DNA from: Branchiostoma floridae
Taxonomy: Eukaryota > Chordata > Leptocardii > Amphioxiformes > Branchiostomatidae
Length of the DNA stretch: 64,000 nt
Assembly: GCF_000003815.2 (NCBI RefSeq)
Contig: NC_049985.1
Coordinates: 7,194,066-7,258,065 of the forward strand
Direction: 5' to 3'
In this document: positions 3,381 to 48,300 of the stretch, piece after piece
Numbering within the stretch: position 1 is the first letter of the stretch
How the letters are laid out: every line of letters begins with the position of its first letter
The notes under the pieces: generated by a model
Told to the model about the DNA's origin: nothing
What the model saw: the letters and a program-made list of their open reading frames with translations, nothing else
Database searches by the model: none
Position numbers and translations under genes: made by a program

Positions 3381-3406
3381 GACTGTTTAAGAATGAATGA
3401 AAGACC

Positions 3407-3412
3407 TTTATT
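3407..3412 (-). terminator. LINE polyadenylation signal
   Basis: On the minus strand this is AATAAA, about 100 bases after the ORF2 stop and immediately before the terminal ATTC repeat. It is a plausible polyadenylation signal for the LINE transcript. Confidence 0.5.
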
Positions 3413-3508
3413 GTACATTCATGCCTCGACGGGCTAGGTACAGGTCACTGATAACAGACATGACTGATAACAGACATAACAAACATATGCAAAAACAACA
3501 AGATACAA

Positions 3509-6500
3509 TTAACTAGCTGAAGGTACTAAGCTAACAGGATGGTCGACATCTTCTCGCTTCTTTGTACAGGTGTAGATATAGGAACAGATAATGTTTGATA
3601 TACAGGGTTTGTCTAGGCGCATCAAAAATAGAAATTTATCCGTTGCATTAAGGTGTTCAAAATATGGGAACTCTTTTCTTATATATTCATAAAGCACAAT
3701 CCGTTCATTATGGTACAGTTTACAGTGTAAAATAAAATGCTGTTCATCTTCTACTTGTTGCAAATCACAAAATTGGCAGACTCTATGCTGCAGAGGGGTG
3801 CGGTTGTGCCTTCCAGTTTCGATATGTAACTTGTGGCAACTAATCCGGAGTTTAGTGACAGCCACTCTGTGTTGTATGTTTTTCACCATCAGATATTCTT
3901 CTTCTTTATAAATAGTCTTGAATAATCTATAGGTTCGTAATTTGTTACCGAAAGATTTGTCCCGGTTGTCATTGTGTATTTCAGCTTTAAATGTTTGAAT
4001 ATAAATATCCTTTAATCGTTGGCTGATGGCGTTGGTTATAGGTAATAGGTTTGTTCCTAGAGATATTTGAGATCTCCATATGTAGGCAAAACCGCATTCC
4101 TCCAGTATCTTACGAACGCCGGACGCCCAGCACTTGTTTCCATTTGCATCTAGTTGTAATTGACAAGATAGGGCGTCGGCTTGTAGACTGTCAGCTGGCA
4201 CGTTTTGACGGATTCTTAGAAAGTGTTTGATAGCGTTCAGGGAGGCTTCCAGTTGAATGGGGTACCTCCCTAATTCCGCTCTTGTGGCAAGGTTAGATGC
4301 TGGTCTGGGGATATTTAGTGCTTGTTTGCAGAATTTAAGGTGAACAGATTCAATGGGACAGGTTTTAGGGCTTTTTAATGCGCCCCAGATTTCTGAGCCA
4401 TAAAGTAGAATAGGTTTGACACATGCATCGAAAAGTTTGTTTCTAACTGGTAATGAGGCGGTGGCTTTATCTAAAGATTGTTTTATTCCGAATAAAGCCT
4501 TCAGACCTTTGCCACTCAGGTATTTGTTGTTAGCTTTAAACGTGCCAGCTGCACTCACAATAATACCGAGATAAGTATAACAAGTTACAATTTCTATTTC
4601 ACGATTATCAAACAGGAGAGAACAGTTTTTAGGTAGACTGCCACCCTTTTTAAATACAATAATTTTTGTTTTCCTAAGATTTACTTTTAATTTCCAAAGT
4701 GCACAATAATTTTCCAGATTGTTCAAGGAATGCTGTAATCCCTGTTTGGACTCGGAAAAAATTACCAAGTCGTCAGCATACAACAAGCAAGGGACAGTTT
4801 TGTTGTACATAAATGGAGGATTACAGGGAGCACCGTCAAATTGGGACACAATATCGCTAAGAAAAAGGTTAAATAATGTAGGGCTTAAATTACACCCTTG
4901 TCTCACACCACAATTAGTAACAAAAGTTTCAGTCAATCCATTTTTAGATTTAACGCAGTTTATAGTCTTTGAATACATGCCTTCTATTACTTTTAGAAAT
5001 TTACCACCAATACCGAGCTTACTCAATTTAAACAAGAGGCCGTTTCTCCAAACAGAATCAAATGCTTTGCTAAAATCAATGAAGCAAGCGTAAAGTTGAC
5101 GATTTTTGTTTAGATATTTGCTAACTAGTGTACTTAAAACAAACAGATTATCGGTAGTTCTAAAGTTTTGTCTGAAGCCTGCTTGGTGTGGCTGGAAGAG
5201 GTTATTGTGTTCTGCGTATTTGACAAGGCGTGAATTTAGAATGGAGGAAAATAATTTCCCTAAACAGCTGATTATAGAAATCCCTCTGTAGTTATCTGGC
5301 AGGGAGGTGTCTCCTGACTTGTGGATAGGGACAATATGACTTACTGACCATTCTTGCGGAAAATGACCATTTTGTAAGCAAGTGTTAAACAAGTGGAGTA
5401 TAGGTTCTTTAAGCAACATTTTACCAGATTTTAGCATTTCATTCAAAATTCTGTCATTGCCGCTTGACTTATTGTTTTTTAGTTTTAAAACTGCGGTGTC
5501 CAATTCTTCTGGAGTGATTGCGGAATCTAGTTCTGACGAGTTTGGTGGGGTGTTCGAAAAGTCTGTTTGAACGTTTTCACTGGGAAGGTCGTTGTCTGTA
5601 GAGCTATCAGGAAATTTGTCAAGATTCTTGAAGTGATTTACCCATTCCTCTTCTGTAATCTGGTTATCGTCATTTGGCTTTCCTGGTTTCAGTTTATTTA
5701 TCAAGTTCCAGAATGCACTCGGGTTTCTTTCCCTTAGTGAAGACAATTGATCCATGATTTGTTGGTGGAAATCTCGTTTTTTCTTTTTTAACAATTTCTT
5801 ATATTCTTTTTTACTTTTGAAGAATCTACCCCTTATGTCTGGATTCGAAGGATTTTTTTCCAGTAAAGATGCTATGTTTTTCACTTCCCTTTTCATTTCC
5901 ATGCAGGTTTTGTCAAACCATTTCTTGTTTTGTCTTTTACGTGGGCGTTTCCTTACCCTTTTCAAACATAGCGACTGATCACCTGCTTCTCTCAGAATGG
6001 AACCAAACTCAGACACATAATCATCGATTTCCGAAGTGCTGTTTATGTTGTTTGGAACATTAGAACAAAGTAAACGTAGTCTGTCGACGAAATGAGACTG
6101 GCCGAGAGAAGAAAGAAACTTCTGGGCTGATTTATCGTTCCATTTATATTGTTTGGGGAGAGGTTTTGCATTTGATATTTTCCGGCTTTCTTGATAGGAG
6201 TGATTTGTTGATTTTGATTGGATTAATGCCCAAACCATGCAGTGATCAGAGAATAACGTTAATGGTTTTATGTGAAACGATAAGATATGTGGGATCAGGG
6301 ACTGACTGCAAATTATGTAGTCAACTGTGCTGCTTCCACGCGGTTGGTGACAGGTAAATTTCCCCTGTAAATCCCCAGCTACCCTCCCGTTTAAAACTCT
6401 TAGGTTAGCTTGAACACATAGGTCAGCGATATGCCTGCCGAATTTATTCGGAGGGGCCTTATCCATGTGTTGTCTATCTGAGGAGTAAGGGAAGCTGTCT

Positions 6501-7039
6501 GGATTACAATCGTCGGGAGTGCTATCATCTACATAATCGCGCAAATCACCAAGACGAGCGTTTAAGTCGCCGCCAAGTAAAATAAATCCGTCTGAACTAT
6601 ATCTGGATATTTCGCTTTCTAGGATTTCTAATGTATGATTTTCTGCGTATTTGTGGGTGGTTGATGTACTGGGACTAATATATGCCGAACAGATGAACAA
6701 GTCTTTTGGTAGGCCCAGTAGCTTTCGGTCTATCTGTACCCAGAGAACATCTGTGGATTTTGATTGTGCTTTCTTGACGTAGTTTCTGTACTCAGTCTTG
6801 TAGAAGAAAATTATACCCCCCGATGAGCGCTTTGCTCGCTTGTTTTTTTGTCTGCATTGGTGGAAATAACTGTAGCCGGGAATGTTAATTTTTGTGTTTT
6901 CTGTGCTCCAGGTTTCTAGGAGCGAGAAGAAGTCAAACTTGTTTACATAAGACACGAAATCTATATCCTCTAATTTGGTACCTAAGCCATGAACGTTCCA
7001 GGCACCAAAGCTTTTGCTTCCGCCTGGGAAAGTTTTCAT
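3509..7039 (-). CDS. LINE ORF2: endonuclease-reverse transcriptase
   Basis: This 1176-residue uninterrupted polyprotein copies the element's RNA into nicked target DNA. An apurinic-like endonuclease (EEP) domain spans about residues 10-270: AWNVHGLG at 13-20, LLETW around the metal-binding Glu42, GGDLNARLGD at 156-165 and SDH at 264-266. The reverse transcriptase spans about 560-830: FIDFSKAFD with catalytic Asp655, GVRQGCNLSP near 711-720 and YADD at 754-757. A C-terminal knuckle (CQFC followed by HFILHC) sits near residue 1100. All key catalytic residues are present and there is no internal stop or frameshift, so this is a full-length, recently mobile copy. The start is the first Met, just ahead of the endonuclease. 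It lies about 300 bases downstream of ORF1 on the same strand. Confidence 0.93.
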   Translation of the reverse strand: MKTFPGGSKSFGAWNVHGLGTKLEDIDFVSYVNKFDFFSLLETWSTENTKINIPGYSYFHQCRQKNKRAKRSSGGIIFFYKTEYRNYVKKAQSKSTDVLWVQIDRKLLGLPKDLFICSAYISPSTSTTHKYAENHTLEILESEISRYSSDGFILLGGDLNARLGDLRDYVDDSTPDDCNPDSFPYSSDRQHMDKAPPNKFGRHIADLCVQANLRVLNGRVAGDLQGKFTCHQPRGSSTVDYIICSQSLIPHILSFHIKPLTLFSDHCMVWALIQSKSTNHSYQESRKISNAKPLPKQYKWNDKSAQKFLSSLGQSHFVDRLRLLCSNVPNNINSTSEIDDYVSEFGSILREAGDQSLCLKRVRKRPRKRQNKKWFDKTCMEMKREVKNIASLLEKNPSNPDIRGRFFKSKKEYKKLLKKKKRDFHQQIMDQLSSLRERNPSAFWNLINKLKPGKPNDDNQITEEEWVNHFKNLDKFPDSSTDNDLPSENVQTDFSNTPPNSSELDSAITPEELDTAVLKLKNNKSSGNDRILNEMLKSGKMLLKEPILHLFNTCLQNGHFPQEWSVSHIVPIHKSGDTSLPDNYRGISIISCLGKLFSSILNSRLVKYAEHNNLFQPHQAGFRQNFRTTDNLFVLSTLVSKYLNKNRQLYACFIDFSKAFDSVWRNGLLFKLSKLGIGGKFLKVIEGMYSKTINCVKSKNGLTETFVTNCGVRQGCNLSPTLFNLFLSDIVSQFDGAPCNPPFMYNKTVPCLLYADDLVIFSESKQGLQHSLNNLENYCALWKLKVNLRKTKIIVFKKGGSLPKNCSLLFDNREIEIVTCYTYLGIIVSAAGTFKANNKYLSGKGLKALFGIKQSLDKATASLPVRNKLFDACVKPILLYGSEIWGALKSPKTCPIESVHLKFCKQALNIPRPASNLATRAELGRYPIQLEASLNAIKHFLRIRQNVPADSLQADALSCQLQLDANGNKCWASGVRKILEECGFAYIWRSQISLGTNLLPITNAISQRLKDIYIQTFKAEIHNDNRDKSFGNKLRTYRLFKTIYKEEEYLMVKNIQHRVAVTKLRISCHKLHIETGRHNRTPLQHRVCQFCDLQQVEDEQHFILHCKLYHNERIVLYEYIRKEFPYFEHLNATDKFLFLMRLDKPCISNIICSYIYTCTKKREDVDHPVSLVPSAS

Positions 7040-7336
7040 ACTGTTGATAAAGTACTAGTACTAAGAAAAATTGTGTCTTTACGGTCCGAATCCACAATAC
7101 TTGACAATACTTAACTAGTTAAACATTTAAATAGAGATACTATGACAATGAATTCTAAAACTTCAGTGAGATACTATAAATTGGAAGTCTAAAACTACTA
7201 CTATATGTTTATGAAATACCAACGTTAGCAAACAATGAGTCTAGCAGTTCTTTAAGAGATAACAAACAAAAACAGAAAAGGGAATTTAAAAGTAAAGGCA
7301 CATAGGGTGACGCAAAGTACAGTCCCAGTACACATC

Positions 7337-8236
7337 CTACCACATGGCGAACATCGGCGGCCACATCATACTAGGGTGCCATGGCCAGGGCGGTGGGTTC
7401 ATCAGCGGTGGATGTCGGGGCGGGATGGGGATGTTGGCGTTCGGGTGGGGTCCCCAGGGCACGGGAGGAGGCTGGAACATGGGCCGGCTCCAAGGTCCGG
7501 AGGGTGGGGGCTGGTTCCAGGGTCCTGCACGGTGTCTGGGCGTGATCGCTGTTTCCCCCGTCTGGCCATTCGAAGTAGAGGACTTTGACCCTTGCAGGGT
7601 GATAGGGCCGCTAACCCTTGGCGCATCGAACGTCTGTCCTGTTCTCTGTGTTGAAGGTCCGGTAGGAATGACAGGCATACATTCTGTCGGGCCTCTCTCA
7701 GGTGCCGGTGCAGGGCGTCCATGCACGGGGTGGTGACTTGAAGTTGGAGCGGGTTGGGAGCGAGTAGGAGGCTGAGTTGGTCTTGGAGCGGGTTGGGGTC
7801 GGGAAGGTGGTTGGGATCGAGGAGGTGTCTGACTGGGTCTGCCCATCTGTGCACCAACTACTGCGTCTCTGTACGAGCGGTTCGGAGAACTTAGCTTGAT
7901 GTTTGCTGTGGGTTGGTTGTTGTTGATGATAGGGTCGTTCCTTCGGCCCATGTAATGGCCCAGGCCTACGAGGGGGTTGATCGTTCGCTTTATGTTGGCT
8001 GCCAGAACCCGAGTCCCATTTCTGTTGAGATGATATCCGTCTGATGAGTACAGGGGTCTCTTGATGGTCCCAGAGGTGGCAAAGTTCGAGTTGTCGATAG
8101 TGTGAATGTAAGACGTCTCATCAGCGGCGACCTTCAGGAAGGTGTTGACGTCATCACAATTCGTCGAATCCGTCTCGTAACGTCTTGACTTCACGTGCAA
8201 GATCGCGCTTTTCCCTTTCAAGACGCACAATGTCAT
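7337..8236 (-). pseudogene. LINE ORF1 3' part: truncated esterase plus proline-rich tail
   Basis: This frame overlaps the end of the upstream ORF1 frame by 83 bases. Its first residues are an out-of-frame reading of the coiled coil. Homology appears to start near NTFLK and continues through IDNSNF and a DGYHLNRNGTR block, which resembles the C-terminal Asp-x-x-His block of the SGNH esterase found in ORF1 of CR1-type elements. The N-terminal esterase half with the GDS nucleophile is absent, so I infer an internal deletion with a frame change. After the esterase remnant comes a low-complexity Pro/Arg/Gln tail of about 170 residues ending in Trp/Pro/Met-rich sequence. The esterase cannot be active in this copy. 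The tail could be genuine coding sequence or simple-sequence expansion. Confidence 0.65.
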
Positions 8237-9260
8237 CTTTCAGCTTTTTCCCTTCTTCAATAGTGAGGCCACTACACCTGTGGTTTTGGCCGGAGGATTT
8301 CAGTTTGTCTTCAAGGACAGACAGCCGTTGTGAAATAGAGACCTCAAACGTTTTTCTGTCGGCGATTGAATCAACTAGACACGTTTCCAGCTTGTTTACG
8401 CTGTCTTGAACAATAGAGCAATTGGAAGAGGAACACCGATCCGCCACATTTGTCTGAGTGTTAGACATATTGTCAGATACACCTTCAGTCTCATTACTGA
8501 TTACATCAAGCAAACCTTTAGGTACAGTTCTGCACAGCGGACACACATCAGACGCAAGGGGTTGATCACACGTTTGGCAAAGTGTAGTGCTGCTATTCAC
8601 TGTCGTTATAGAACCCTCCAGGCTTGTGTTCTGAGATGAAACAACCGTATTATTGTTCACGAGAGGAGTGGAGCTAATGTTCTGTTGTACCTTCTGTCTG
8701 AGACCAGGGAACACTTCCGAAAACCAAAGCAAGTACGCCGAACCTTGAATCAGCAACTTCTGGGTCGATTCGTAGATTTTGATGCTCACAGAACCAACCG
8801 ACTGTTTGGTTTGGAAGTCAACGAACGTGGTTTTGATGTGATGACCGTCACTGGACTCGTCCTTTGCTCGAGTGTTGTAGAACTCCTCACATTTAGAAAG
8901 CCAGGAAATCGCATGATTGGGGGGGAGGTATATTGTGATACTTTGAGCGTTGTGTTGTATACAATAGTTCCTAGGCTGTTTCAGCGATTTCTTGGAGAAT
9001 CTGGGCGCGCCGGGGATGGTATGGCTGTCGTTGTACTGTTGTCTACGGGAAGCGTCCGAAAGAACAGTAAAAGCCTTCCTCACCTCTTTGTGCTTTACAT
9101 GAGCTTTCTTGAAGACGCTGTCTGTCCTGCTGAGCTTGCACGCTTCTTCATACAACAGGAGCTCTGTCGTGTAGGCAGCGACAATTTCATCGTGAGTCGC
9201 TGTGGGTGGAACACCGAGTGCCGAGTACAACTTTTCAGGGTCACTTCCATCGGTCGCCAT
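8154..9260 (-). CDS. LINE ORF1 5' part with DnaJ-like domain
   Basis: This 368-residue frame opens with a J-like domain (about residues 9-77): LYSALGVPPTATHDEIVAAY matches helices I-II, and KEVRKAFTVLSDASRRQQYN matches helix III and its end. The HPD tripeptide between helices II and III, needed to stimulate Hsp70 ATPase, is missing; the position reads LLYEEACK. Residues about 100-190 form an alpha/beta segment including KIYESTQKLLIQG, which resembles a segment I associate with esterase-containing ORF1 proteins (from memory, unverified). A four-cysteine zinc-ribbon-like motif (CQTC, then CPLC) lies at 228-243 and a coiled coil at about 335-365. The frame ends at 8154, where an intact element should continue into the esterase. 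ORF1 proteins bind element RNA; the J domain's role is unknown. It is followed by the esterase remnant and ORF2 on the same strand. Confidence 0.8.
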   Translation of the reverse strand: MATDGSDPEKLYSALGVPPTATHDEIVAAYTTELLLYEEACKLSRTDSVFKKAHVKHKEVRKAFTVLSDASRRQQYNDSHTIPGAPRFSKKSLKQPRNYCIQHNAQSITIYLPPNHAISWLSKCEEFYNTRAKDESSDGHHIKTTFVDFQTKQSVGSVSIKIYESTQKLLIQGSAYLLWFSEVFPGLRQKVQQNISSTPLVNNNTVVSSQNTSLEGSITTVNSSTTLCQTCDQPLASDVCPLCRTVPKGLLDVISNETEGVSDNMSNTQTNVADRCSSSNCSIVQDSVNKLETCLVDSIADRKTFEVSISQRLSVLEDKLKSSGQNHRCSGLTIEEGKKLKDDIVRLEREKRDLAREVKTLRDGFDEL

Positions 9261-9360
9261 TGTTCCGAGCGCTTGGGTCGGCTTGGGTTGTCTGTTGCTC
9301 CAAAATTACCGCCGTATTTGCAGCGAAAATAGACCAAAGTACGCAAAAACCTACTCAAGT

Positions 9361-10198
9361 AGAAGAAACTTACATCAGCAAACTAGTAGAATGTAAAATA
9401 TTGGATGGATCGAGCTTCACAATGAGGTCTTTCTATGACCTAATTCCCGCAGTCGGTGTTTTTGACACTTTTCAGAGAAGAATTTCCACTGAACCTGTTC
9501 TTCCTTAGTATATTATATAGATGCGCATGGGCGTAGGTTTTGCAATTGCGTAGGCTAGTTTTTTTAAGAGAACACATTTTTTTGGGTGGGTAGGGGTCAC
9601 ACATTCAGGACTACAGCACGGCTTTTCCCGACCCTGTCTACCCGTAGTGATAAGCTTAGGGGATCGGCACTGGGTTGGGAATAGCCTGGAATCTATCCAC
9701 TCTAGCTCCAAAGCGCTATAGTACTAAATGTAGCTCTGTTGAAGCAAATTGGAACGCTGCCTAGTATGGCTAACCTAACTACAGTTTACTAGCTACAAAG
9801 CCCTCATCTGATCCAAACAGAAGACTCCCCCTACTTTCAAATTTACACTATTATAGTCGGATGTCGCAGAAGACTTTTGGCTACATGTCCAATCAACATC
9901 CCAACCACAGATGAGATTGCCCACAACTTACTCCCAACCATGCTCTCCAGAAGGTCGGGAATCCATGGTCATGATGGATATGGTCGGCTATGTGTGACAG
10001 GGTCTTGAAGTAGTCTCTACCAGACTGATTACGCTGGCTAGTACACTATAGGGAGAATAGTTTGCCAGGGGAGTGTTGCTACCAGAGGAGTTTACCGGCA
10101 GCGCAGCCGGAGAGGATACATTTACCTAAGCGTGGACTGACTCCCCTGGCCAATTTCCCGATTTTTTTTGCCGAATTTTAGGATCCCCGCTCCCCGTA
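9361..10198. other. Intergenic sequence with a short dispersed repeat
   Basis: No gene is seen. About 10010-10060 (AGTAGTCTCTACCAGACTGA, then a GCTGGCTAGTACACTATAGG segment) recurs in slightly diverged form at 17584-17635, so it belongs to a dispersed repeat family. The 5' UTR of the LINE probably occupies the first part of this interval. Confidence 0.5.
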
Positions 10199-13912: not shown

Positions 13913-15985
13913 GTCTCTCCCCCTCTCTGTGGGTGTTTGTGAGTGTAACTGTTTGTGTTTATGTGTGCGTCAGCAACAAACATGTCTTTAGAGGTCTTTA
14001 GACACACTTTTATTCTATATCTTAATTTCAGGTACTTCTTCATCTATTAAACCGTAAAGAAGAGACCACGGATTTCTTTGAACATTTTACTGGACAAATA
14101 CATAGACAATACACATACTGACATAGGGCTTGGCCAGAAAAAAAGCAACAGCAACAATGACTTTGGATCTAATTCAAGCGCTTACATAATATCTGGTTTA
14201 TAGCAAGTCTATTGGAAAGTTCATGTCCGGAGGCTAATTGCAAGTGGGTAGGTGTATTTGGAAACATACCCACTGTAGGACCTGTAGACATAGGAAACAT
14301 ACACATGACATTATTGTCAGGTTTTAACAATATGCGAGTTTTAGTGTTAGCTATATATCTAGACAAGCTTTACCATAAGAGAAGAAAACCAGCCTGTAAG
14401 ATAGTTCCACAAACCACTGCCTCACCACAACGGAAATTTGTCTCATAAGTAACGTCACTAGAAATGCACTTGCAAAAATATCCCTCCGCCGACGTCTGCC
14501 GTGTGTGTGATTGGTGGATTGATTGACGTGAAATTGAGGGATCTAACCTGTCAAGATGGCGACAACCGACTCAGGTTACATTGGGGGCGATCTTATCTGC
14601 TAGGTCGTTCAGAGATGATGGGGAAAACAGAACCCACGTGCTCCTTTCACTCAAGATGCAAGGAGAATAGTGGAAACATTTAGCGAGAGGGTGGATTTCC
14701 ATTGTCAGTCTTGTAATTCGATAAGTTAAATTGTTGAGGTTGACCTGTGTTGACATATTTAAAGACCAAACACGCTAAAAGTGAGCTACAGTCCCAATAT
14801 TCAAATGTTACAAAGTCAATAGGTAACATTTCAATGGATTGAAAGGTACATTTACGATATGAGCGGCAAGGTGATCAATTCAGAATTGTATAATAGATGT
14901 CAAATATGTTTTAAAACAAAGAAGCAAAATGATTGTTGTATGAATACTTTGTGAGATATTCTGAATGCAAACAACTTGTGAGAGTTTATGGCCATTTATC
15001 TAAAAAGTCGGTTTTGTCCCATGGTTCCTTTTCCATTTAAGAAGGCGTATTTTTGTTCCAATGCGCTGTACATCCGTACATTGATTTCGTTCTAGTTTCT
15101 GTATGTAAGATTTCCTAGACATTTCTAACCAACTGTGTTGTGTCTTTCAGGTAAAGTTTGGACACCCTTTAAAGACACCCCTAGCCTTCAACGACACATG
15201 TCGGAAAAAACACCGGGGAGCTGTACAAGAAGTGGGCGGCATGGGTCTCCTCTTGCACCGAGGACTAAAGTCAAGATCAACGGTGGAAAGATGAAGTTAG
15301 CTCGGTTACGGCCATGGAACGATGTGAGACAGCCCTGGTCATGAAATCATAGCGTTTGAAGCTTTCGAAGATACATTTCGCGTTGACTGGTCAAATCCCA
15401 GCTGACTTTCAGGAAGGAAAACGCAACATTGCCTTCAATTGTACGTCAGATTTGTGTGAATAACATGATAAAGCAGTGCTACTAAAATTGGAAATCATTT
15501 TGTAAGAAATCATACAACAGTGACTTCTTATGTACACCTTGCAATGTCTTTGACTTTTTTTATTGTGCTAGACCCTAGCGTAAGAAGGATTGTCGGACAC
15601 ACACAAGTTTCAATACTTCACAGAAATTACTTGATGTTGCAGTGTTGTTGTTTTTTTTAATCCGGACCACGCAATGTTCACGAATGTACCTCTAGTAAAA
15701 AAATCTAGAAATTCATGTCACCTGAAAACCGTGAAACCGTGAATGTAGATATACGATCTTAACATTTGAATAAAAGACGAATGATTTGTATGTATAATGA
15801 CATCCTCAGTCAACATTGTACAGCAAAAACTTCGTGAATTCGTCTGCACTTGGTAACTCTAACTGTTTTGTTTATTCCATTGTTTATCAACACTACAAGT
15901 AATGATATTTACCTTCATTCGTTTAAGTATCTATTGCATTTACCTCGAGTAGACAAGCAGGTGCAAATTAAGATGATACGTTCAT
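10680..15985. other. Gene-free stretch with microsatellites
   Basis: I found no gene. AT-rich unique-looking sequence alternates with simple repeats: AAC at about 13531-13550 and a long CT tract at 13840-13920, whose opposite strand reads as a meaningless Arg-Glu repeat. Around 14490-14600 the sequence is richer in CpG and includes AAGATGGCGAC, a YY1-like motif, but no exon could be anchored there. Confidence 0.45.
13840..13920. repeat. CT/GA microsatellite
   Basis: An interrupted run of CT dinucleotides about 80 bases long, with GT substitutions and one T-rich break near 13850. It is a simple-sequence tract and is not expected to code. Confidence 0.9.
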
Positions 15986-16257
15986 GCTACGGCCGCGTGG
16001 CGCGTTGGTACACCCGATCCCTCGATCTCGGAAGTTAAGCAACGCGACGGTCCGGACAGTGCTTGGATGGGGGACCAACCAAGGACGTCCGGATTGCTGT
16101 AGCCTCACGAAGTTTCCACGAAATCGTCTTCCGGGAGGGACGTAAAACGGGGGTCCCGTGCTCGAGGAGGTGCCTCGACCACGTTAAACAGCCTCATTAC
16201 TCATACTGGGTACCTACTGACTGGCAAAATACACCAGATGATTATTATTATTATTAT
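15986..16257 (+). mobile_element. 5S rRNA-derived SINE
   Basis: The head (15986-16105) aligns along its length with eukaryotic 5S rRNA: GCTACGGCC at the start, GATCTCGGAAGTTAAGC at the box A region, GCTTGGATGGGGGACC at the IE/box C region, and GCTGTAGCC closing the terminal stem. About 120 bases of unrelated body follow, containing GGGACGTAAAACGGGGGTCC and CACGTTAAACAGCC, and then an ATT trinucleotide tail at 16241-16256. This head-body-tail plan is that of SINE3-type elements, transcribed by RNA polymerase III from the internal 5S promoter. GTTCA on both sides may be a weak 5-bp target duplication. A genuine 5S gene is unlikely because of the changes in the stem regions and the attached body and tail. 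Relation to a named amphioxus SINE was not checked. Confidence 0.8.
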
Positions 16258-34160: not shown

Positions 34161-35801
34161 ACTTGAATACAACATCAAATAAATGACAGTTCTGGATGGT
34201 AGATAGTACTGGGTTTCCCCTGAGTAAGGTTGAACATAAAATATTTTCAGTGGTGTGTCTTGGGTCAAATGGTAAGATACCCTGCATGAACATAGTGGTT
34301 AAAGATGACAACATATCAAGTCTTGCATCATTGTATAGAGGACAGTGTAGAAAATAATGTATAGTTGATTCGTTAGGGTGGCCACATTTACACATAGGAC
34401 TATTTACACATTTATGTTGGAACAGGTGGAAATTCAACTGACCGAAGTTAAGTCTAAGTCTAGTGAGATGGATTGCTGGGTATCTGGGACCATGCGAGAA
34501 GTGCAGGTGGGTAGGAGGTCTATAGAAAAAATACTCCGACTCATTTTTGAAGCTAGCAACAGAGGGAGATGCTCTGGTAGTGAGCGGTAATTGATTCCAT
34601 GAAAGAACAGAGGAAGGTAAGAATGATCTCCTGTACTTCTCAGTTCTAGAAGGAATTTGGATATAATTTTGATTAGCACGAAGGCTGTATGTAGTGCGGT
34701 CACAGATCTGGGGTGGAATAATTTCACAAAGATATTCAGGTGTTAAACCGTTAACCATTTTGTAAAAATGAATAAGTTTGTGCTTTTGGCGTCTGCTGGC
34801 AGTAGTTTCCCACCCAACTTCTGACAAGATACTGTCGTTACTTGTTCCTCTCATTGCACCTGTGCAAATTCGAGCTGCAGTGAGCTGGACAGATTCAATT
34901 AGGTTGCAATCTTTAACCGACAATTCATCCCATACAACATCAGCGTGCTCTAATAGTGGTCGTATCATAGTTTTGTAAAGAATTTCGAGTGTTTGCCTCG
35001 GAGCAAATCTTGAAATTCTCTTTAGTAAATTTGTTCGTTTCATTGCATTTGTTGTAATAATTGAAACATGTAATGACCATGATAATTTTGGCGTAAGATG
35101 TAGGCCGAGGTGTTTATGAGAGGATACCTCAGTCAACCGAATACCCATAAAATACAGTGGTGGATGTACAACTTTAGTTCGCTTGGTTGTAAAAGTTATT
35201 AGTTGAGTTTTAAGAGGGTTGAATGTAACGAGCCATTGACGTGACCAGTTATGAACTAGTCTAAGATCGTGATTTAGCCTTACAGCTGAGGTAATAGGGT
35301 CTCTAACAATCTCAGTTAGTGAGGTATCATCTGCAAATAAGTGGCCATCCGTTTCTAAGTTGTCCACCAAATCATTGATGAAAACAAGGAAAAGAAGTGG
35401 GCCCAAAATAGAGCCCTGTGGGACACCAGCGCCAATGGGTAACCATTCGGAACAGGCTCCGTTGAGTACAACACGCTGCTCACGATCATTTAAATATGAC
35501 TCAATCCAGGCAAGGAGGGGACCAGTTATTCCTAATTGTTTTAATTTAAAAATTAGCCCCAAGTGCCAGACTTTATCAAATGCTTTAGATATGTCTAAAA
35601 AAACAGTACGTACATCAAGTCCTTGATCAAGTGCTTGATGCATATTATGTGTTAGATATAACAATGAGTTAACTGTCGAGTCTCCCGGAGAGAAACCTGA
35701 GTTTCGATCGGTGAGCAGTTTGTTTTCGTACAAGTAGGATGACAAGGGGATATATACAATTCTCTCAAAGACTTTTGATATACATACATATACATATACA
35801 A
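34132..35801 (-). pseudogene. Truncated LINE reverse transcriptase fragment
   Basis: The frame is open from the insertion border (about 35800) to the stop at 34132; the first Met gives 537 residues. Upstream in-frame sequence reads SKVFERIVYIPLSSYLY, a standard reverse transcriptase segment, so the frame was cut by truncation and not initiated here. Visible motifs are FLDISKAFDKVWH (first catalytic Asp), GVPQGSILGPLLF and FADDTSL (catalytic FADD). A C-terminal knuckle, CKCGHPNESTIHYFLHC, is near residue 470. The endonuclease and the first part of the reverse transcriptase are missing, so the fragment cannot mobilise itself. There are no internal stops, implying recent insertion. Confidence 0.88.
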
Positions 35802-45345: not shown

Positions 45346-48300
45346 GCGAGTAGCCAGCACTCCATGGGCTCCTTCTTGCCCTTCATCTGAACCGGTCCCC
45401 GGTAGTCGAACCGGAAGGCAGGGTCGTGGCACTCTGGCTGCATCAGATCTCTGTACGTACATGGAATCGTAAACATGTATAAACAGAACAGGATGTGCAC
45501 TTCGCATCACAATCACAATCAAAAGTACAATTTACTCCAGTCAATAAAGTACCTCAACGCAAGTATGAATTGGACGATGTCTCTGATGTATAAGCATCAG
45601 TTTAAACGTGTAACCACTTAACATTTTGTATACACTGGACACATGTCCCTGGCGCTATACACCATCCACACACAGGTAAACACATATGTGCCTGGTGCTG
45701 AACACCATCCACACACAGGTAAACACACCTGTCCTTGGTGCTGAAAACATTTACATACAGGAAAACACACTTGTCCTTGTTGCGTAACACCATCCACACA
45801 CAGGCAAACACAAAAGTCCTTGATGCTGAACACCATCCACACACGGGCAAACACACCTGTCCTTGGTGCTGAAAACATTTACATACAGGTAAGCACACCT
45901 GTCCAATGTGCTGAAAACATTTACATACAGGTAAGCACACCTGTCCTTGGTGCTGAACACCATCTACACACAGGCAAACACACCAGTCATTGGTGCTGAA
46001 AGCATTTACATACAGGTAAGCACCTGTCCTTGGTGCTGAAAACCATCCACACACAGGCAAATAGACCTGTCCCTGGTGCTGAAAACATTTTGCAGACAGG
46101 CAAACAGGCCTGCCCTTGGTGCTGAGCACCATTTTTATTCAAGCAAAAGAAACTGTCCCTGGTGCTGAACATTATTTACATATAGGCAAACAGATCTGCC
46201 CCTGTTCTTGATGCTCAACAAAATTCACACAGAGGTTAGACAAACATATACAGGTAATAACACATTTCCCAAGTGGCAGTTCTGAACTCCCTCCACACAC
46301 AGGAAAACGCAACTGTCCTTGGTGATGACGACCATCTAAACATGGATACACACATACATACCTGTCCTGAAAATATGTTATTTGTCTAATTTTCCATGTT
46401 GAAACCTGTTTTCTGATAAGCATATCACAGGTGGACACGTCTCTAGTATACCTCACCTGTAGGCGTACTCGGACACGTTGATATGACCCTTGACCCCCGT
46501 GGTCTCTGTCCGACTGGTCAGGTTGACCGTGTTCCCGAACAGACAATACCGCGGCATCCGCTGACCTATGACCCCTGCAACCACCTCCCCACTGTGGATA
46601 CCGATGGTGATCTGGGAAGGAACCAAGATGGCGGCGTCACCAATACGTACACATATAAAATGCAATATAATAAGTATGGTCTCGATTGGGGAGGTAAAGG
46701 TGGTAGAAGGAGAGGCATGGGCTTTGAATTCCAATACTGTGCTCTAGACACAGTAGATAATAACCTATTGTCCTTATGGTCTCCAAAAGGCTATGAGACT
46801 ACCTTTTAGGTGTATGTGGAGAAAAGTTTGACCTACTTGCACGCCCTCCATCTCCTCCTGTTTACACTGGTGGCTGATGTCCATCATGTCCAAGGCCAGG
46901 CGTGCGATACAGCGGGCATGGTCCATGCACGGCTCCGGTAACCCGCTCACAGCCATGTACTTGTCTCCTACTGTCTCAACCTGAGAGAAAAAAAATCCAG
47001 TTACTTCGCTTGCCGGAGCGACAAGGACTTTAATTTTTGTTTTCTACTACCAGGACGATGTAAGGGGGAGGAGATACGAATTCAGTCACGATTTGGACCT
47101 CGATGAAGCGCCACCTGGCGGCGAGAAGTACCTATCAGTCATCCACACGTTACATGTTTAGAGAACTTACTATCTACTTCATGCTTTTTCTACTTCGCTA
47201 CTAAATGTTTCCAAATCAACCCATGTTAGTATACAGCAACTAGCACAAAGACCTAGTGACCCTCAAATTCAATGAATCAGGACGGGCGGATGCCAAACAT
47301 CTTTACCCTGTTGCTTAAATTACGATTCTGAAAGGCCATCTCTTCCTAACAGTGTATCACTAGATTCATCCTGAGAGGTACAGAGACCTGGTTGAAATTT
47401 CACTGTTTCCCACGCTACCTTGTAAACGCTCGGGTTCTTCTTGGGGTCCGTCAGGTCGTCGAAGCGCGTGTAGATGTCGTTGAGCAGCTTGACGATCTTC
47501 ATGGCGCCCGTGGCCGAGGCGTTCCTCTTGCAGAAGCAGTTGAAGCCGACGATGCCGCTGAAGAGCAGGGTGACGTTATCGAACCGTCTGGCGGGAACCG
47601 GCCGGTGATGACGCAGTTCTGTCGCCACGGAGATCGGCAGGATGGAGTACAGCAGTCTGGAACGGTTCAAACATCGGATAAACGTACCTGATGTCGGCTA
47701 AAGATAAGTGGTTATGTTCGTTGTATGAAATCTGGTATGGATAACTATGGATGTATATTAGATATGATTAAATCTGATTTCGGCTCAGCTTCTTTCGACC
47801 AAATGTCCAGGTCATTGTAACTTCATTTGTCCTTGATTTCAAAACTGATCTAGCACCACTTGCGGGATGACAAAATACTTTGTGGTACGAGCCAGCATCT
47901 GCGACACGAACTATGATATAAGAAACAACAAATGGCATTAAATAATGCATGGCATCGTGCCTCGGCAGAAAATGGCGGTTGGTGTCAAATGTTTACGATT
48001 TGGTTTCTCCCCGAAATGGAGTTACTTTCAGTTGCTTGGTGTGACACCGGAAATGACGTCAGTCTGACCTGTCAGTCTTCTTCTTCTCGTCCTCCAGTTC
48101 CCGGTAGGTCTGCTGCAGCTTGTCTGTCAGAATCTCCAGCTTCTGCGTCAGCTTGTACTCCGCCTCGAACTGCTCGGACAGCAGCACCAAGTCTCGCGTG
48201 GCGTCGTGCAGCGGGATGTCCGACAGGTACAGGCCGCGGCGGTTCAGGTCGTCGAGATTCATCACACTGTAGGGGGTGATGGAGATTTATTTTATGTTTA

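Follow-up and report, generated by a model that had tools for sequence, protein, structure and literature searches.

Background

Esterase-type products of the first open reading frame (ORF1) are known from CR1, RTE, RTEX, and Penelope-like elements, where the passages of PMC3905857 devoted to them describe a coiled coil and an esterase, without a structural RNA-binding domain. The corresponding sections of PMC4120745 add members of L2, report a zinc finger or leucine zipper in some of these proteins, and name PHD in other ORF1 types, not beside the esterase. The term J domain occurs in neither paper. We describe here a long interspersed element (LINE) of the lancelet Branchiostoma floridae whose ORF1 protein (ORF1p) starts with a region related to the J domain of DnaJ/Hsp40 proteins. 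The copy under study lies on the minus strand (3391..9412, ends approximate) of a 64,000-nucleotide stretch of contig NC_049985.1 (assembly GCF_000003815.2, positions 7,194,066 to 7,258,065), hereafter the window.

The lancelet protein resembles the known esterase-type ORF1s because it carries an SGNH esterase. As in the type IV ORF1 of CR1, L2, RTE, and RTEX (e.g., zebrafish ZfL2-1), to the extent that the relevant sections of the two papers describe it, the esterase stands after a part predicted to be coiled-coil-like, there is no RRM, and the element has a second frame (ORF2) with an EEP endonuclease and a reverse transcriptase (RT). Two parts set the lancelet ORF1 apart, the J-like domain at its N-terminus and the conserved mid domain, and those sections name neither. 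Among the matches listed in the open-licence literature no title or abstract described a LINE with a J domain, an absence that is no proof. Human L1 ORF1p and Jockey-type ORF1p are likewise multidomain proteins encoded upstream of an EEP-RT ORF2, but the ten lancelet ORF1s tabulated gave no Pfam match at E ≤ 1 to RRM, CTD (Transposase_22), or CCHC.

Two cellular families are informative for the N-terminal domain itself. It is similar to cellular J-domain proteins (DnaJ, the DNAJB family) in sequence profile and predicted helices, and differs from them in having lost the His-Pro-Asp (HPD) tripeptide and in its setting, a retrotransposon protein. Tim16/Pam16, which pairs with Tim14/Pam18 in the mitochondrial import motor, is J-like and also lacks HPD; it is 11% identical to the lancelet domain over the aligned part.

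Homology of the ORF1 N-terminus to the J domain

In the window copy, the J-like region matches the Pfam DnaJ model at 35.1 bits (E = 1.5e-8, gathering cut-off 27.8), along model positions 2-63 of 63. A DnaJ match at E ≤ 0.01 was found in 9 of 13 representative ORF1s of the lineage, and the eight of these that were tabulated all score above the curated cut-off. Against a profile built from six host J domains, the nine N-termini (9/9) score 31.6 to 47.0 bits, and their shuffled versions reach at best 13.2 bits with the same profile (1800 shuffles, 1767 reported). Conversely, a profile of the nine N-termini matches J-domain proteins with E = 4.4e-13, and the hhalign comparison of these N-termini with host J domains gave 98.6% and E = 1.3e-15 for that one comparison. 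AlphaFold2, run without an alignment, predicted helices at residues 8-15, 23-40, and 48-79, with a block-mean predicted local distance difference test (pLDDT) of 83-90 at residues 11-70. We conclude from these profiles that the N-terminal J-like domain of ORF1 is homologous to the cellular DnaJ/Hsp40 domain. A first-pass annotation of the window, made from its letters without database searches, had read the start of ORF1 as J-like, and the profile searches do find the J-domain match.

The same annotation had proposed the capture of a host Hsp40 exon, and here the comparison gave it no specific support. Of 18 host J exons compared, 16 gave a score with the ORF1 J profile (best L046, 49.7 bits); the 18 were picked by choice, not at random, from 39 DnaJ hits outside ORF1. 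The profile fits these exons broadly and no donor among them was traced.

Architecture of ORF1 in three groups

The 13 representative ORF1s share one order of parts: J-like region, mid domain, zinc ribbon or PHD-like module, coiled-coil-like part, SGNH esterase, and tail, the last being cut by the end of the sequence stretch taken in 9 of the 13 ORF1s of alignment A1. They fall into group A (L002, L007, L012, L015, L018, and L021), with a short cysteine ribbon, and groups B (L031, L032, and L034) and C (L035, L037, L039, and L042), with a PHD-like module. The nine ORF1s with a DnaJ match make up the whole of groups A and B, and hhalign (91.5%, E = 8.5e-7) shows that group C begins with a homologue of their N-terminus.

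The zinc-ribbon-like cysteines that had been noticed in the window are indeed in frame, downstream of the J-like region, and C228, C231, C240, and C243 are invariant across the 13 ORF1s. The Pfam zinc-ribbon match of the window ORF1 is weak (E = 0.015, below the cut-off). PHD is matched at E ≤ 0.01 in 7/13 ORF1s, and L039 alone exceeds the cut-off among the four tabulated. The coiled coil expected after the cysteines corresponds to long predicted helices of coiled-coil type, of modest confidence (block-mean pLDDT 40-77) and with weak coiled-coil-type Pfam matches. The SGNH esterase (Lipase_GDSL_2) was found in all 13 representatives (Pfam, E ≤ 0.01). The mid domain, of about 100 residues, is conserved in 13/13 aligned ORF1s and contains LLIQGSAYLLW in the window copy; its best PDB matches have E = 0.28, one of them a Tctex-type dynein light chain, and its Pfam matches are weak and scattered.

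Loss of HPD and constraint on the J-like region

To follow individual residues, J-like sequences of groups A and B were collected as 36 rows from 34 loci. L008, a broken copy, accounts for three of these rows as pieces; the other 33 are whole and come from 32 places (the window, L001, included; L009 and L023 are the same place). None of the 33 has the HPD tripeptide, whereas each of the 18 host J exons compared retains it. In all nine aligned representatives an acidic residue, Glu or Asp, takes the place of the His. Because HPD is missing, the domain is named J-like here, on its sequence, and ORF1p falls outside a strict definition of J-domain proteins. Other positions are fixed in the nine representatives: D4, L11, Y12, L15, Y30, E59, V60, F64, L67-S68-D69, R73, Y76, and K91. 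Among them, Y30 corresponds to Y25 of DnaJ helix II and is followed by a basic residue in 8/9. This type of tyrosine, together with the basic residue after it, takes part in Hsp70 binding.

Constraint was estimated from the ratio of nonsynonymous to synonymous substitution rates (dN/dS) in 13 pairs. The J-like region has values of 0.20 and 0.34 in the two pairs with dS < 1 and of 0.08-0.26 in eight pairs with dS > 1, where estimates are less reliable; the remaining three pairs gave no value. Its dN/dS is below that of the tail in all six comparable pairs. For the other parts of the protein, the L002-L007 pair gave 0.25 in the esterase, 0.27 in the mid domain, 0.50 in the coiled-coil-like part, and 0.44 in the tail. 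The J-like region thus looks to be under purifying selection in the measurable pairs. With HPD absent while dN/dS is low, the domain appears to be constrained, yet not as a co-chaperone. According to the part of PMC11349236 that treats the tripeptide, HPD is essential for the interaction of J domains with Hsp70, and J-like domains without it are probably unable to stimulate Hsp70 directly. The suggestion of the first-pass annotation that the module recruits or mimics chaperone contacts is weakened by this loss.

Spread and recent activity of the lineage

A search of the 513-Mb genome with ORF1 returned at least 65 matches, the window and fragments counted; all genome-wide search counts are lower bounds. 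In six matches besides the window, identity is 85-99% and the alignment takes in the J-like region as well as the remainder of the 383-residue query; other families lie at about 57, 50, 43, 35, and 26% identity. A scan with the DnaJ profile, in which each exon of a host gene counts separately, gave 73 hits; 34 of them, the window included, are within 1500 bases of ORF1 places of this lineage (matched against 53 of the 65 ORF1 matches). Copies with the same 5' untranslated region and ORF1 lie on several contigs and have matching ORF2 too. A relative of ORF2, 43-71% identical to that of the window, was found downstream of ORF1 in 9/9 stretches examined; five of the nine have a single open frame, and in the other four the frame is broken in two, in one case at a stretch of N. 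The J-like domain is thus part of the LINE, as first proposed, since it adjoins the same cysteine motif at many places and is followed by a relative of ORF2 in all nine stretches examined. Over ten elements of this genome, compared without a root, J distances track RT distances (Mantel r = 0.85, with 1 of 5000 permutations as high), as is expected if the J-like domain descends with the element.

Taken together, a constrained J-like domain in the ORF1 of this lineage as a whole is almost certain. Several observations qualify this statement. Taken alone, the group C N-terminus cannot be identified as a J domain, and Pfam does not recognise it; damaged copies without the J-like segment exist (e.g., L027, L028, and L044). 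The idea that other copies would lack the segment, which would have spoken for a host fragment, was not borne out: groups A and B keep it, group C has a diverged homologue, and some damaged copies have lost it. The J-like region has a higher dN/dS than the esterase in 4/6 comparable pairs. Inside group A alone, J and RT distances are uncorrelated (r = -0.33, p = 0.36).

Some copies are very similar to each other. Full-length ORF2 copies that are 99-100% identical were found at at least four other places (39 of 8938 candidates scored), and the ORF1 regions of L002, L003, L004, and L006 are 96-99% identical to the window in DNA. Because near-identical copies sit on other contigs, the sequences suggest that the lineage was recently active. 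The sequence AAGATGGCGG stands 216-273 bases upstream of the ORF1 ATG in 11 of the 17 loci examined in groups A and B (L002, L003, L004, L006, L007, L014, L015, L017, L019, L021, and L030) and is absent from the window copy. Four copies compared diverge from each other just upstream of it, and for this reason we take it as their 5' end. It resembles the YY1 site known from the 5' terminus of human L1, possibly by convergence.

Outside the lancelet, no relative was confirmed in viral contigs searched with P0001 and alignment A1. The 35 prokaryote loci matched by A1 (L074-L108) all fall within residues 471-645, in the esterase part; they were taken as ordinary esterases and were not used.

Structure of the window copy

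The copy in the window fits the EEP-type two-ORF layout, with an EEP-RT ORF2 downstream on the same strand. Its parts are as follows.

3391..9412, minus strand: LINE copy, 5'-truncated and with an internal deletion (alignment to L002, L003, and L004; 3' divergence of four copies)
8154..9260, minus strand: ORF1 fragment of 368 codons, from the ATG at 9260 to a premature stop at 8154-8156 (reading frame)
9030..9230, minus strand: J-like domain, ORF1 residues 11-77 (Pfam DnaJ, E = 1.5e-8; AlphaFold2 helices)
8676..8981, minus strand: conserved mid domain, residues 94-195 (alignment A5, 13 sequences)
8532..8579, minus strand: zinc-ribbon-like cysteine motif, with a PHD-like module at the same place in groups B and C (four invariant Cys)
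8160..8420, minus strand: predicted coiled-coil-like helices (model helices 281-325 and 334-367; weak coiled-coil family match)
8157..8158, no strand: junction of a 617-base deletion (L002, L003, L004, and L006 hold 617 extra bases)
7340..8156, minus strand: frame-shifted remainder of ORF1, with the C-terminal portion of the SGNH esterase (DGYHLN motif) and the Pro-rich tail (P0002)
3509..7054, minus strand: ORF2, 1181 codons, EEP endonuclease and reverse transcriptase (Pfam)
3391..3412, minus strand: 3' end of the element, with an AATAAA signal and a tail of (CATT)n (divergence of copies on C4, C7, C17, and C19)

The 5' truncation is visible from L002, L003, and L004, which can be aligned from 9412 and reach about 70 bases further, to a common CAAGATGGCGGC terminus. 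In comparison with L002, L003, L004, and L006, the deletion at 8157/8158 shifts the ORF1 frame and takes away part of the esterase, so that the window ORF1 ends after the coiled-coil-like part. The first-pass annotation had taken this fragment as the whole ORF1 and overlooked the esterase, the deletion, and the absence of the canonical HPD. Full ORF1s are 837-848 residues long from the ATG in the four group A relatives whose ORF1 end is known, and P0002 corresponds to the C-terminal part of the L002 ORF1. GDSL has no Pfam match in the window copy, which keeps just the C-terminal part of the esterase. The intact ORF2 reported downstream is there, open for 1181 codons from 7054 to 3509 on the same strand, with matches to RVT_1 (E = 5.9e-40) and Exo_endo_phos (E = 5.9e-8).

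At the 3' end, four copies part from the window sequence between 3398 and 3383, at AATAAA and (CATT)n. No clear target-site duplication was seen by eye at the element ends 9412 and 3391. A near-repeat of 16/17 bases at 9774 and 3306, above 20/20 shuffles, was rejected as a candidate, both members being outside the element ends.

Elsewhere in the window, a second, different reverse transcriptase fragment lies at 34813-35799 on the minus strand and is about 26% identical to the ORF2 described above. Four matches to the mir-2060 precursor (Rfam) are clustered at 45645-46148 on the minus strand, and a 5S rRNA match of 51 bits at 15985-16105 on the plus strand is possibly a 5S-derived repeat.

Possible role of the J-like domain

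We give a probability of roughly one half to the reading that the J-like domain is a non-catalytic assembly module of ORF1p and not a working co-chaperone. The element in the window is a damaged member of a LINE lineage whose ORF1 is of the esterase type and whose ORF2 is of the EEP-RT type. The domain would act in the ribonucleoprotein as a small helical module for protein-protein docking or dimerisation, like the HPD-less Tim16/Pam16, and would not drive the ATPase cycle of Hsp70. Together with the coiled coil, the conserved helix III of the domain and the stretch that follows may help ORF1p to assemble; the partner may be a second ORF1p, a different J protein, or some other molecule. Contacts with nucleic acid would fall to the mid domain, the zinc module, and the basic Pro-rich tail, and the esterase would have the role that it has in other ORF1s of its type.

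Two other explanations of the J-like match can be set aside. That a piece of a host gene merely adjoins a single insertion, or became joined to it, has practically no probability left and is ruled out by the many copies that carry the domain, with DnaJ hits in ORF1s of the lineage at 34 places and copies on several contigs with matching ORF2. A helical segment might also resemble DnaJ by chance, as the weak PDB matches of the single sequence (best E = 0.0012) could suggest, but the recurrence of DnaJ in 9/13 ORF1s, the profile and hhalign E-values, and the low scores of the shuffles rule this out, and we consider its probability negligible.

The alternatives that accept the homology are more probable than these two. 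It is conceivable, if doubtful, that a J domain captured long ago is now a relict, a structural spacer or N-terminal cap that is kept since its removal would unfold ORF1p. The divergence of the group C N-terminus beyond recognition, the loss of HPD in A and B, and the stronger constraint on the esterase in 4/6 comparable pairs all fit such a history, but helix III and the next segment are rich in residues that do not vary within groups A and B (E59, V60, F64, L67-S68-D69, R73, and Y76), and the J region stays under the tail in dN/dS in every comparable pair. An unlikely alternative is that the domain binds host Hsp70 or a J protein without HPD, either bringing the chaperone to the particle or blocking it. 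The retained J homology, the invariant Y30 with its basic neighbour in 8/9, and the purifying selection in measurable pairs are compatible with such a hijack or decoy; against it stand the missing HPD in 33/33 whole rows, the acidic residue at the His position in 9/9, the essential part in Hsp70 interaction that PMC11349236 ascribes to HPD, and the disappearance of the J signature in group C. We likewise regard as improbable the fuller scenario in which a cellular J domain was taken up before the split of groups A and B, dropped its HPD, and would now serve as a decoy or tether that binds a host chaperone or J protein during particle assembly.

Significance

Of the two LINE proteins, ORF1p is the less well understood, and ORF1ps of the esterase type are described, in the passages of PMC3905857 that concern them, without a recognised RNA-binding fold. 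The J-like module offers a concrete contact surface through which such a protein could build the particle or meet host chaperones. It also carries a warning for annotation: with 34 of the 73 DnaJ-profile hits being retrotransposon ORF1s, counts of chaperone genes made from the profile only would be inflated in this genome. If the decoy or tether reading were true, about half of the DnaJ-profile hits (34/73) would belong to mobile elements, and a non-long-terminal-repeat retrotransposon would possess a chaperone-interface module. The three groups A, B, and C may also illustrate how a captured domain, carried by a mobile lineage, drifts until profiles no longer recognise it.
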